64,000 nt of DNA, from positions 186,001-250,000 of the forward strand of contig JANWWZ010000001.1 in the NCBI GenBank assembly GCA_025057115.1, read 5' to 3'. Below, piece by piece: positions 53,368-58,043 of the stretch (positions are counted from its first letter, which is position 1; the number at the start of each line of letters is the position of its first letter). Below the pieces are notes generated by a model. It searched no databases. It saw only the letters and a program-made list of their open reading frames with translations, and was not told the DNA's origin. A program made the translations under genes and the position numbers. This DNA is from Bernardetiaceae bacterium (GTDB lineage Bacteria; Bacteroidota; Bacteroidia; Cytophagales; Thermoflexibacteraceae).

Positions 53368-53541
53368 GCTGCAGAGCAAATAAATCAAATCGACATTTCA
53401 CCTAAAGCACACTAAAAGCACGTTTAACAAATGGCAAATTTCGGAGTTAGCAAGCAAAGAAAGGCAATTTTCAAACCAAGATAGGATAAGCCAAACTTAG
53501 TATATTTTGCAGGTGAATTTTTTGCCTGTAGTTTTTTGATT

Positions 53542-54473: not shown

Positions 54474-54558
54474 GCAGCGCTTCACTACAGGGGCATGGTA
54501 AAACAACCCATTACAAAAAATCCGATGGACGTAGTAGCCATCGGAAGTACTTTTCAGT

Positions 54559-54632
54559 GGAAGCTATAGGATTCGAACCTATGACCCTCTGCTTGTAAGG
54601 CAGATGCTCTGAACCAGCTGAGCTAAGCTTCC
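54559..54632 (-). tRNA. tRNA-Val (anticodon UAC), copy 1
   Basis: 74 nt with a complete cloverleaf on the minus strand: acceptor GGAAGCT/AGCTTCC, D-arm GCTC...GAGC, anticodon loop CTTACAA (anticodon TAC) on a TCTGC/GCAGA stem, and T-arm with GGTTCGAATCC. The CCA end is not encoded. Anticodon UAC reads GUN valine codons. Confidence 0.97.
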
Positions 54633-54650
54633 GAAAGTGTTTGCATTTGT

Positions 54651-54724
54651 GGAAGCTATAGGATTCGAACCTATGACCCTCTGCTTGTAAGGCAGATGCT
54701 CTGAACCAGCTGAGCTAAGCTTCC
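54651..54724 (-). tRNA. tRNA-Val (anticodon UAC), copy 2
   Basis: Identical in all 74 positions to the first copy, 18 nt away on the same strand. The pair is a recent or gene-converted tandem duplication. Confidence 0.97.
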
Positions 54725-54789: not shown

Positions 54790-55458
54790 TTAAAAATTGT
54801 TCAGAACGGCTTGATTGCTTAAGGCAAATTTAAGCAGGGCGTTTTTGCCGCTTAGATTGAGTTTTTTGCAAATATTGCTGCGATGATTTTCCACCGTCTT
54901 GACACTAATGAAAAGTATCTCGGCAATTTCCTGACTAGTTTTCATTTGGGAAATCAAACGCAAAATGCGCAATTCAGTAGGGGTAAGCTGTTCGGCTAAG
55001 GCTTGTCGCCGACGTTCGTATTTCTCCTTTTTTCGAATCCGTTTGATGAGGTAATCCGAGAAAATACTGCTAAAATAGTTTTTGCCTTCTGCCACTTGGC
55101 GAATTCCCTCGAGAAGTTCATCAAATACATTTTCCTTTGAAATAAATCCTTCTACTCCTGCATCAATGGCAGCGTTGAAAGTTTGCTCTTGGTGATAAGC
55201 TGTAAAAATGATAATCTTTTGCTCAGGTGATTGCTTTTTGAAGTGTTGGGTAAGGGAAAGACCATCCATGCCAGGCATGTCAATATCTAAAATAATCACA
55301 TCGGGAGCCGTATCTTGAGCAATCCGAATGGCTTCATTTGCATTGCCTGCAATTCCTGTTACTTGCATATCCGGCTCATTTTCAATAAGATGGCTTAATC
55401 CTAAGCGCATCACGGGGTGGTCATCAACAATGAGAATTGTTATGGGCTTCTCAGGCAT
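54790..55458 (-). CDS. NarL/FixJ-family response regulator
   Basis: A 222-residue two-component regulator. The receiver has VDDHPVM at the start, the phospho-acceptor Asp in DVIILDIDMPGMDG and a conserved Lys in GFISKENVF; the C-terminal LuxR-type helix-turn-helix is TPTELRILRLISQMKTSQEI...SVKTVENHRSNICKKL. The ATG at MPEKPITILIVDD was taken over an upstream TTG. No histidine kinase neighbour is present, so it is an orphan regulator. Divergent from gcvT. Confidence 0.93.
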   Translation of the reverse strand: MPEKPITILIVDDHPVMRLGLSHLIENEPDMQVTGIAGNANEAIRIAQDTAPDVIILDIDMPGMDGLSLTQHFKKQSPEQKIIIFTAYHQEQTFNAAIDAGVEGFISKENVFDELLEGIRQVAEGKNYFSSIFSDYLIKRIRKKEKYERRRQALAEQLTPTELRILRLISQMKTSQEIAEILFISVKTVENHRSNICKKLNLSGKNALLKFALSNQAVLNNF

Positions 55459-55523
55459 CAATTCATGAGTCAATCAAGGGATTGCCTTAAAATTAAGATG
55501 ACTTCATCGAATTCCCAAACGAG

Positions 55524-55543
55524 TATAGGGGTTAGCCCCTATA
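55524..55543. promoter_or_regulatory. 20-bp dyad TATAGGGG-TTAG-CCCCTATA
   Basis: A perfect 8-bp-arm inverted repeat with a 4-base centre, between the orphan response regulator and gcvT, 66 bp upstream of the regulator start. Its symmetry suits a dimeric LuxR-type regulator site; autoregulation is an inference. Confidence 0.5.
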
Positions 55544-55586
55544 AAAATGAAGGAAAATCGGCATTTTAGTTTGCTTAATGTTGAAA

Positions 55587-55594
55587 TACCTTTG
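55587..55594 (+). promoter_or_regulatory. gcvT promoter -7 box
   Basis: TACCTTTG matches TAnnTTTG; TTTAG lies at the -33 distance, so the -33 half is weak. Start of transcription would be near 55601, giving a leader of about 160 nt. Confidence 0.45.
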
Positions 55595-55668
55595 TACAAG
55601 TAAAAAAACTCAGGTTCCTCCAACTTTGATAAACTAAAACTAATACAAATACACTTCAGTAAGCTAAA

Positions 55669-55759
55669 CTAACAAACGCGCTCAAAGAGAAAAAGGTAAA
55701 AGACTCAGTTAAGTTCGCGTTTATTAGCTTTACGGCTAACTAAACGCGATTTTTATTTT
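55669..55759 (+). promoter_or_regulatory. candidate attenuator in the gcvT leader
   Basis: CGCGTTTATTAGC (55716-55728) pairs with GCTAA-c-TAAACGCG (55735-55748) over 13 bp with one bulge, followed by ATTTTTATTTT and then the ATG at 55760. CTAACAAACGCG at 55669-55680 nearly repeats the 3' arm (CTAACTAAACGCG) and can pair with the same 5' arm instead (11 bp, one mismatch). These two folds exclude each other, as in an attenuator or riboswitch expression platform. The ligand or trigger is not identified. Confidence 0.55.
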
Positions 55760-56851
55760 ATGACCTTAAAAGAAACCGCACTTTATCAAACTCATCTCAA
55801 GCTGGGAGCTAAAATGGTACCATTTGCTGGTTATTACATGCCTTTGCGCTATAGCTCCGACATAGAAGAACACCTTGCAGTACGCACTGGCGTAGGCATT
55901 TTTGATATCTCGCACATGGGCGAGTTTATTCTCAGCGGACCCCACGCCATAGACTTGATCCAGTATTTGACTACCAATGATGCTTCGCTGCTCTACGAAG
56001 GCAAAGCCCAATATACTTGTATGCCCAACGGCAAAGGTGGTATTGTGGATGATTTGCTGGTGTATCGCTTGGGTAAAGAAAGTTATATGTTGGTGGTCAA
56101 TGCAGCCAACATTGAAAAGGATTGGCAATGGATAGCCACCCACAACAGGTGGGGAGTGCAAATGGAAAATATTTCCGACCAAGTTTCTTTGCTTGCTGTT
56201 CAAGGTCCGCTGGCTGCTGCTACCCTGCAAAGTTTAACCAGCATCGACCTGGCTAGCATGGAATACTACACCTTCAAACGTGCTCGACTGGCAGGGGTGG
56301 AAAACGTTATCATCTCTGCTACGGGTTACACAGGCGCAGGCGGCTTTGAAATTTACGTCCCTAACGCCCATGCTCTACACCTTTGGCAGCACGTTGTAGA
56401 AGCGGGCAAACCTTATGGCATTAAGCCCGCTGGACTGGCTGCCCGCGACACCTTGCGCCTCGAAATGGGCTATTGCCTCTATGGCAATGACATAGATGAA
56501 ACCACTTCACCTATAGAAGCTGGCCTGGGTTGGATTACTAAGTTTAACAAGGACTTCATCGATAAACCGTTGCTAGAAAAGCAAAAGCAAGAAGGCACTA
56601 AGCGAAAACTCATAGGCTTTCAGATGACAGAGCGCGGCATCCCAAGACCTGGTTACATTCTTTATAACCAACATGAAGAACCCATCGGAAAAGTTACTTC
56701 AGGCACCCAGTCCCCTAGTTTGCAAATAGGTATAGGACTGGGATATGTACAAACTCCTTACAGCCCAGTAGGCACCGAGTTATTAGTAGGTATTCGTCAG
56801 CAAAAAGTTCCCGCTCAGGTGGTCAAGTTGCCTTTCTACAAAAAGGGATAA
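55760..56851 (+). CDS. gcvT: glycine cleavage system T protein (aminomethyltransferase)
   Basis: GcvT, which transfers the methylene group from aminomethyl-lipoyl H protein to tetrahydrofolate, releasing ammonia. The 363 residues contain MVPFAGYYMPLRYSSDIEEH, GVGIFDISHMGEF, the folate-site region ATGYTGAGGFEIYVPN and AARDTLRLEMGYCLYG, and a C-terminal OB-like domain. gcvH and gcvP are elsewhere. Probably regulated by the leader described above. Its stop codon lies inside the promoter of the next gene. Confidence 0.97.
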   Translation: MTLKETALYQTHLKLGAKMVPFAGYYMPLRYSSDIEEHLAVRTGVGIFDISHMGEFILSGPHAIDLIQYLTTNDASLLYEGKAQYTCMPNGKGGIVDDLLVYRLGKESYMLVVNAANIEKDWQWIATHNRWGVQMENISDQVSLLAVQGPLAAATLQSLTSIDLASMEYYTFKRARLAGVENVIISATGYTGAGGFEIYVPNAHALHLWQHVVEAGKPYGIKPAGLAARDTLRLEMGYCLYGNDIDETTSPIEAGLGWITKFNKDFIDKPLLEKQKQEGTKRKLIGFQMTERGIPRPGYILYNQHEEPIGKVTSGTQSPSLQIGIGLGYVQTPYSPVGTELLVGIRQQKVPAQVVKLPFYKKG

Positions 56852-56884: not shown

Positions 56885-57988
56885 ATGATAAGCGAACCCC
56901 AATCTTTGGTAAGGGTAGAAAGCAATCTCTTTCTACAATTAGACAACCTTGGGCATGAGCAAGTGGTGTTTTGTCATGACCACTATACAGGCTTAAAAGC
57001 CATTATTGCTATTCACAATACAGTACTTGGTCCTGCTATGGGAGGCACGCGCATGTGGGCTTATAGCTCTGAAAGTGAGGCATTGGAAGATGTCTTGCGG
57101 CTTTCTCGTGGCATGACGTTCAAAAATGCCATGGCAGGGCTGCATCTAGGGGGAGGTAAGGCGGTGATTATAGGCGATGCGCGCAAAATCAAAACGGAAG
57201 CCCTTTTGCGCTTGTATGGAAAGTTTATCAAAAATCTCAATGGAAAGTATATCACTGCTGAAGATATGGGCATGACCGAGCGGGACATGGAGTACATTGC
57301 CCAAGAAACTTCTTTTGTTGCTGGCTTGCCTCATTACCGCGGCGGTAGTGGCAGCCCTGCTCCCATGACCGCCTTAGGCACCTATGTCGGTATGAAAGCC
57401 GCTGCAAAAAAAGCCTTTGGAACCGATAGTTTAGAAGGCAAAACCATCGCCGTGCAAGGCGTCGGCTCAGTGGGAGAAATATTAATAGGCTACCTGGCAA
57501 AAGAAAATGCCCGCATTGTTGTTACAGATATTTTTGAAGACCGCATTAAAAAGGTAGCTCAGCAGTACAAAGTAACTGTAGTAAGCCCAGAGGATATTTA
57601 TGACGTACCAGCTGATATTTATTCGCCTTGTGCCAGGGGAGCTACTATTAATGACAGTACTTTGCAGCGTTTAAAGGCTCAAGTAATTGCAGGATGTGCC
57701 AACAATCAATTAGCCGATGAACAACTGCATGGAACGGCTTGCATGAAAATGGGCATCGTATACGTACCTGATTTTGTTATCAATAGTGGTGGCGTAATTA
57801 ATATTGCTACAGAAATCGCAGGCAGTTATAATCAAGCATGGGCTAAGGCTAAAACTGAGGAAATTTATGACCGCGTTTTGCAAGTGTTGCAAAAGGCAGA
57901 AAGCCAGCGGCGCAATGCTCAACTGGTAGCGTTGGAAATGGCTTGGCAGCGCATTCAAGATATTGCTCGGATCAAGGCAACTTATTAA
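56885..57988 (+). CDS. leucine dehydrogenase (Glu/Leu/Phe/Val family)
   Basis: A 367-residue NAD-dependent amino-acid dehydrogenase oxidatively deaminating branched-chain amino acids to 2-oxo acids. The substrate domain has GPAMGGTRMW, FKNAMAGLHLGGGKAVIIG (with the conserved Lys) and AEDMGMT; the Rossmann domain has GKTIAVQGVGSVG and later PDFVINSGGVINIATE. Size and motifs fit leucine dehydrogenase better than Phe or Glu dehydrogenase. Together with the HMG-CoA-lyase-like gene nearby it points to leucine catabolism. Terminated by a strong hairpin. Confidence 0.92.
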   Translation: MISEPQSLVRVESNLFLQLDNLGHEQVVFCHDHYTGLKAIIAIHNTVLGPAMGGTRMWAYSSESEALEDVLRLSRGMTFKNAMAGLHLGGGKAVIIGDARKIKTEALLRLYGKFIKNLNGKYITAEDMGMTERDMEYIAQETSFVAGLPHYRGGSGSPAPMTALGTYVGMKAAAKKAFGTDSLEGKTIAVQGVGSVGEILIGYLAKENARIVVTDIFEDRIKKVAQQYKVTVVSPEDIYDVPADIYSPCARGATINDSTLQRLKAQVIAGCANNQLADEQLHGTACMKMGIVYVPDFVINSGGVINIATEIAGSYNQAWAKAKTEEIYDRVLQVLQKAESQRRNAQLVALEMAWQRIQDIARIKATY

Positions 57989-58015
57989 AAATTTTTTCGT
58001 AACATTACAGCAAAG

Positions 58016-58043
58016 TAGCTTTCTTCACCAGAAAGCTATTTTT
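58016..58043 (+). terminator. intrinsic terminator of leucine dehydrogenase
   Basis: 8-bp stem TAGCTTTC/GAAAGCTA, loop TTCACCA, followed by TTTTT-GTTTT, 28 nt after the stop codon. Confidence 0.88.

Follow-up and report, generated by a model that had tools for sequence, protein, structure and literature searches.

A conserved terminator-like hairpin in the gcvT leader of a Bernardetiaceae bacterium suggests an attenuator

The gcvT locus and its promoter

The window, the 64,000-nt stretch analysed here, comes from a 3.0 Mb genome and contains a gene for the aminomethyltransferase of the glycine cleavage system. The initial annotation had named this gene gcvT, and the protein scored 470 bits against the GcvT subfamily model (cut-off 300), in agreement with that name. 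A gene of the Glu/Leu/Phe/Val dehydrogenase family follows after 33 nt, and the two probably form one co-transcribed unit. On the other side of gcvT, a spacer of 286 nt, which contains the leader and the hairpin described below, separates it from a divergent response regulator gene. The features of the locus are the following (+, forward strand; −, reverse strand).

54790–55473 (−): NarL/FixJ-type response regulator gene, divergent from gcvT
55524–55543 (no strand assigned): palindrome TATAGGGG-TTAG-CCCCTATA (TATAGGGGTTAGCCCCTATA), between the response regulator gene and gcvT
55564–55567 (+): −33-like element TTTT, weak, 19 nt ahead of the −7 box
55587–55594 (+): −7 promoter box TACCTTTG (TAnnTTTG)
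55600–55759 (+): gcvT leader, its start point placed from the −7 box
55602–55673 (+): conserved upstream leader segment, model R1
55626–55634 (+): invariant word TTGATAAAC, candidate antiterminator arm
55669–55680 (+): near-copy CTAACAAACGCG of the hairpin 3' arm, its pairing potential particular to the window's genome
55715–55749 (+): predicted intrinsic-terminator hairpin, arms TCGCGTTTATTAGC and GCTAACTAAACGCGA
55750–55759 (+): T-rich tail TTTTTATTTT of the predicted terminator, abutting the gcvT ATG at 55760
55760–56851 (+): gcvT, aminomethyltransferase gene
56885–57988 (+): Glu/Leu/Phe/Val dehydrogenase family gene
58012–58042 (+): ordinary 3' terminator of the gcvT–dehydrogenase unit, used as a control

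The leader was compared with those of four relatives: three genomes of the same genus (G001, G002 and G003) and G007, from a second genus of the family. Two of these five leaders come from close relatives, G001 and G003 sharing 95% of residues. A search for the response regulator in 390 genomes of the order found matches at 1e-45 or better in 10 genomes, these five included. The arrangement of response regulator and gcvT was seen in all five (G001 and G007 by their open reading frame lists, G002 and G003 by coordinates), so that a relative of the regulator adjoins gcvT in every hairpin-bearing genome. The core AGGGGTTANCCCCT of the palindrome at 55524–55543 was found without mismatches in 3 of 13 family genomes (the window's own, G001 and G003), at the gcvT locus only, with diverged forms at the aligned place in G002 and G007. 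It is a putative operator and probably the binding site of the divergent response regulator itself. Directly behind the regulator gene lie two tRNA-Val genes (anticodon TAC; 54557–54724, − strand), and the corresponding place in relatives has three (L003), two (L004) and two (L005) tRNA matches.

TAnnTTTG is given as the −7 box of Bacteroidota sigma A in PMC7366714 and PMC9723704. It is a real promoter signal in the window's genome, where 198 upstream spacers contain 78 sense and 50 antisense copies and 15 of a reversed control. The box occupies the aligned place in all five leaders, and the 300 nt before gcvT hold exactly one exact copy per genome, 165 to 209 nt from the ATG. Between hairpin and ATG there is no exact copy in any of the five, and each has one to five one-letter-off matches. 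Judged by motif only, a promoter thus lies upstream of the hairpin and none between it and the gene. A box this far out is not rare, since 7 of the 78 sense boxes are at least 165 nt from a start, although some of these are chance matches. The −33 element is weak across the leaders (TTTT or TTTC, with TTG in G007 only); in the window's genome TTG is most frequent 19–20 nt ahead of TAnnTTTG (15 of 71). The resulting leader of about 160 nt is long beside the 5' leaders of two Bacteroidota, for which PMC9723704 gives mean lengths of 65 and 52 nt (medians 24 and 32).

The hairpin ahead of gcvT and its conservation

The hairpin at 55715–55749 consists of 9 outer pairs, a bulged C and 6 inner pairs, with a folding energy of −17.0 kcal/mol that none of 200 shuffles equalled. 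It had been described as a 13-bp hairpin with a T-run reaching right up to the gcvT ATG; the hairpin and the position of the T-run (tail 55750–55759, ATG at 55760) are as described, and the length is corrected to 15 pairs interrupted by a bulge. No equally strong terminator-like site arose in 300 dinucleotide shuffles of the entire spacer (best shuffle −16.0). The fold of the full stretch 55600–55765 was at shuffle level (z −0.32), and only the hairpin stands out. The stable hairpin and T-run that belong to an attenuator are therefore present.

Hairpin and T-run precede the ATG in all five genomes, at distances of 10 nt (window), 28 nt (G001 and G003), 32 nt (G002) and 7 nt (G007). The tail after the hairpin is T-rich in each, and in G007 the T-run also abuts the ATG. 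When each spacer was shuffled separately, 0 of 300 shuffles reached the observed hairpin strength in any of the five. Between the window's gcvT and those of the other three genus members, 76–78% of residues and 38–39% of four-fold sites are identical, the latter being near saturation. Despite this, all four genus genomes keep the hairpin, the T-run and the −7 box, and the window's hairpin matches each of the other three at 32 of 34 positions. The leader ahead of the hairpin matches at 60/93 to 69/101 or 69/102.

In G007 the layout is the same and the stem is different (GATATATTT/AAATATATC vs TCGCGTTTA/TAAACGCGA in the window), and its outer stem still pairs, with 7 of 9 pairs altered on both sides in an alignment made by hand. 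A MAFFT alignment of the five hairpins counts double changes at just 2 of 15 pairs, a low number because MAFFT gaps the G007 stem. We read the element as an RNA hairpin that is probably kept for its pairing. Near-invariance of the stem within the genus was also considered as a sign of sequence-specific recognition; this argument is weakened by the control, since the ordinary terminator at 58012–58042 likewise keeps its stem in the four genus genomes and varies in its loop alone. The inner part of the gcvT hairpin (TTAGCTTTACGGCT, 55724–55737) is invariant in the four species, unlike the varying loop of the ordinary terminator, and G007 keeps TAGTTTTAC.

The same features bear on a reading at the DNA level, in which the palindrome TCGCGTTTA-N-TAAACGCGA would be an operator around a second promoter with its −7 box TAGCTTTA in the loop. 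Stem and loop are near-invariant in the genus, a single letter separates the loop word from TAnnTTTG in all five genomes (TAGTTTTA in G007), and each of the four genus genomes has one copy of CGCGTTTA-N-TAAACGCG, at gcvT, while G007 has one elsewhere. However, upstream regions of genes show no excess of TAnnTTTA (35 sense copies, 37 of the reversed control), there is no TTG at the −33 position, and the spacing of the hairpin arms differs (16, 17 and 22 nt) while the T-run is kept; the plain 3' terminator, moreover, has a conserved stem too. We consider this reading very improbable. Still more so, to the point of being extremely improbable, is a 5' UTR hairpin guarding the mRNA or tuning translation: the hairpin is near the ATG in the window's genome (10 nt) and in G007 (7 nt), but it ends 28–32 nt ahead of the ATG in the other three genus genomes, and the T-run is kept in all five.

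Terminator-like sites were also surveyed in 350 kb of the same contig, where a simple gene caller gave 315 genes, with 48 divergent spacers no shorter than 60 nt. At −12 kcal/mol or better there were 20 convergent sites, 17 co-directional sites, 3 in divergent spacers facing a start and 2 antisense to both neighbours. Two of the three divergent sites share one spacer, which by our reading of the gene sequences is really acpP–fabF, acpP having been missed by the caller; gcvT is thus the only true divergent case seen in the 350 kb. The rarity of the site proves little alone, because called genes of the same 350 kb contain 78 terminator-like sites at the same cut-off, 10 of them at −17 or better. 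Another hairpin with a T-run (53505–53541, −10.2 kcal/mol, equalled by 0 of 200 shuffles) lies immediately ahead of the ATG of a small open reading frame that reads as acetyltransferase-like and has a divergent neighbour. Its layout is the same as that of the gcvT leader, and its strength is below the −12 kcal/mol cut-off of the spacer survey.

Among gcvT genes more widely, the best site within 220 nt was taken at each of 90 loci (L071 and L072, with <200 nt upstream, and L006, a duplicate of L004, were excluded). At the 85 loci other than the five above, this site lay at most 40 nt from the ATG in five cases (L061, −13.2; L015 and L018, −9.0; L036, −6.5; L031, −2.8), all unlike the window's hairpin in sequence. 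Stronger sites lie farther from the ATG, for example −17.4 at 45 nt (L075) and −16.7 at 57 nt (L076), and may be ends of the gene upstream.

A terminator-like hairpin in the gcvT leader had been claimed in the initial annotation, and its conservation behind a credible promoter makes an attenuator the natural reading. An intrinsic terminator inside the leader is well supported by these features. Since the sole exact promoter box lies upstream of the conserved terminator, gcvT probably depends on read-through.

Upstream pairing and conditional read-through

In the initial annotation, a near-copy of the 3' arm was proposed to act as an antiterminator by pairing with the 5' arm. The near-copy is present at 55669–55680 exactly as stated, and in the window's genome the best duplex between upstream leader and 5' arm uses it (−12.1 kcal/mol; 4 of 1000 shuffles reach this value). 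In the four relatives the best duplex has −7.0, −7.0, −7.0 and −4.5 kcal/mol, which is shuffle level: 604 (G001), 464 (G003), 490 (G002) and 431 (G007) of 1000 shuffles were as good. Because the relatives are at chance level, the near-copy pairing is a feature of the window's genome alone. For the 3' arm, pairing with the upstream leader gave no signal, being equalled by 313 (window), 141 (G001), 317 (G003), 67 (G002) and 284 (G007) of 1000 shuffles. The lowest-energy fold of the full leader has the terminator formed, at −23.3 vs −17.9 kcal/mol with the near-copy helix forced. A terminator/antiterminator switch with the near-copy as its antiterminator arm is decidedly unlikely on these values: the strong duplex in the window's genome speaks for it, as does a predicted upstream pairing that holds the 5' arm until the 3' arm emerges (0.77–0.80), but the pairing is at chance in G001, G002, G003 and G007, and the fold with the terminator formed is the more stable one by 5.4 kcal/mol.

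Folds of the growing transcript point to upstream pairing of a more general kind within the genus. With 9–27 nt of the hairpin made, the 5' arm is predicted to pair upstream with a mean probability of 0.48–0.82 in the four genus genomes. Such pairing is hardly predicted in G007 (0.05–0.06), so the folds show no antiterminator common to both genera. In the final transcript folds the terminator has a probability of at least 0.97 in all five genomes.

A scan for duplexes shared by the genus covered the columns present in all four genomes and is blind to pairing beside an insertion in G001. It returned a single duplex: in all four, TTGATAAAC (55626–55634) can pair with GTTTATTAG (55719–55727) in the terminator 5' arm over 9 bp, including two G-U pairs. 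Shuffling the columns gave 9 or more pairs in 13 of 3000 cases, and shuffling the arm did so in 12 of 3000. The duplex was identified post hoc and is weak, at −5.1 to −6.8 kcal/mol; none of its pairs varies, and its energy in the relatives is at shuffle level. With weak support from these counts, the invariant word may be a better antiterminator candidate than the near-copy.

The reading we favour, at slightly better than even confidence, is an attenuator with conditional read-through before gcvT that is opened via the upstream leader. Transcription would start near 55600 from the TAnnTTTG promoter and give a leader of about 160 nt, at the end of which the polymerase would meet an intrinsic terminator that reaches up to the start codon of gcvT; only polymerases that read through would transcribe gcvT and the dehydrogenase gene. 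The conserved upstream leader (55602–55673), bound or folded by something, would delay closure of the terminator and make read-through conditional. The best candidate for this delay is pairing of the invariant word with the terminator 5' arm, which in the window's species the near-copy would reinforce. The hairpin, the T-run and the promoter box are read directly from the sequence, as is their conservation; termination, read-through, regulation and the antiterminator are what we infer from them, and a regulated switch at gcvT is plausible. Of the switch proposed in the initial annotation, the terminator in the leader stands, kept in five genomes with a promoter upstream, while the proposed antiterminator finds no support in the relatives, where its pairing is at chance.

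The same anatomy would result if the terminator acted at a fixed ratio, releasing the leader from 55600 on as a stable small RNA about 150 nt long, with constant partial read-through and no sensing. This is possible, though clearly less probable than an attenuator with conditional read-through. It is in line with the lack of an antiterminator common to all five genomes and with a whole-leader fold at shuffle level. On the other hand, identity in the upstream leader (60/93 to 69/101) is above that of synonymous sites (38–39%), which suggests that the leader has a function.

Candidate sensors and known systems

At the gathering score, Rfam matched only the two tRNAs in the window. Across the five loci, with E up to 5, there were tRNAs and sub-threshold matches, one of which, to the MH_s25 sRNA, overlaps the spacer (L001 1488–1607, 23.4 bits vs a gathering score of 114, E 1.4) and is by our reading a chance match. 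A search for the glycine riboswitch RF00504 across 390 genomes of the order gave no match, with filters that at such scale lose weak matches; of 14 control genomes, two were positive in the same search (Bacillus subtilis and Caulobacter vibrioides). Window, loci and order thus agree with the earlier remark that the leader does not look like a glycine riboswitch. The Bacteroidetes/Chlorobi column in the table of PMC2211319 is, as read here, likewise without one.

Model R1, built on the upstream leader, matched four of the 390 genomes with strict filters (E ≤0.01), namely those of the genus, at one place each and always at gcvT. No R1-like leader was found at any other gene in these genomes, and G007 gave no R1 match. 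Covariation in homologous leaders, named in the initial annotation as a check, is suggested for the hairpin by the hand-aligned G007 stem (7 of 9 outer pairs) and was not seen in the upstream leader, where 0 of 7 predicted pairs have a double change in the four sequences available. An aptamer in the upstream leader that binds a ligand from glycine or one-carbon metabolism would fit the position before gcvT, the conserved leader and an order in which 390 genomes gave no glycine riboswitch. Nevertheless, such a metabolite riboswitch would be known from a single locus of one genus and, in diverged form, from a second genus, and has neither covarying pairs nor an Rfam match. The riboswitch suggested earlier is accordingly quite improbable, given also the restriction of R1 to gcvT leaders of the genus and a lowest-energy fold with the terminator formed.

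A lineage-specific sensor, in which the upstream RNA words TTTGATWRACTAA and ACTAAAC are read by a protein or ligand that opens the terminator ahead of gcvT and the dehydrogenase gene, while the divergent response regulator is dedicated to control at the promoter, is unlikely. TTTGATWRACTAA is kept in G007, whose only copy lies in the gcvT leader; each of the four genus genomes has one extra copy elsewhere, vs 0 to 1 for the reversed control. A leader peptide was rejected for the genus, as none of its four leaders contains an ATG or GTG and just a 3-codon TTG frame lies before the hairpin; by our reading, no start codon opens the frame that crosses the hairpin (SRLLALRL). The G007 leader contains an ATG frame of 19 codons with a high share of Ile and Leu (MAYLIKLTKSFITSAILID; L106 1348–1407) that is absent from the window's genus.

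The gcvT leader resembles intrinsic-terminator attenuators in bacterial 5' leaders in having a promoter, a leader of about 160 nt and, just ahead of the first structural gene, a hairpin and T-run. It differs from attenuators with a conserved antiterminator, as none was found conserved across both genera and its switch is a putative one. The glycine riboswitch likewise lies upstream of gcvT, and that of Bacillus subtilis acts on a terminator, but the present leader and the 390 genomes of the order are without a match to it. To our knowledge, few attenuators have been worked out in Bacteroidota. If termination is confirmed, glycine cleavage would have a control point in this leader, in an order with 0 of 390 glycine riboswitch matches, and antitermination in Bacteroidota could be studied here in a simple case. 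PMC9723704 suggests leader-peptide attenuation for amino-acid operons of Flavobacterium psychrophilum, which are similar in being a Bacteroidota case with a structured 5' region ahead of an amino-acid gene, and different in that the four genus leaders lack an ATG or GTG, the ATG frame being found in G007 alone. Literature matches listed for gcvT leaders, attenuation in Bacteroides and the −7 box included no description of this leader.

A trans-acting complement was also considered and rejected, because extra matches to the 18-mer TTTATTAGCTTTACGGCT with up to 3 mismatches occurred at about the rate of the reversed control. The one 2-mismatch match (window's genome) and one 3-mismatch match (G001) were located at a DUF805b RNA. 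Rfam places DUF805b RNAs above the gathering score at L090 1493–1525 in G001 and at L092 1307–1339 in the window's genome.
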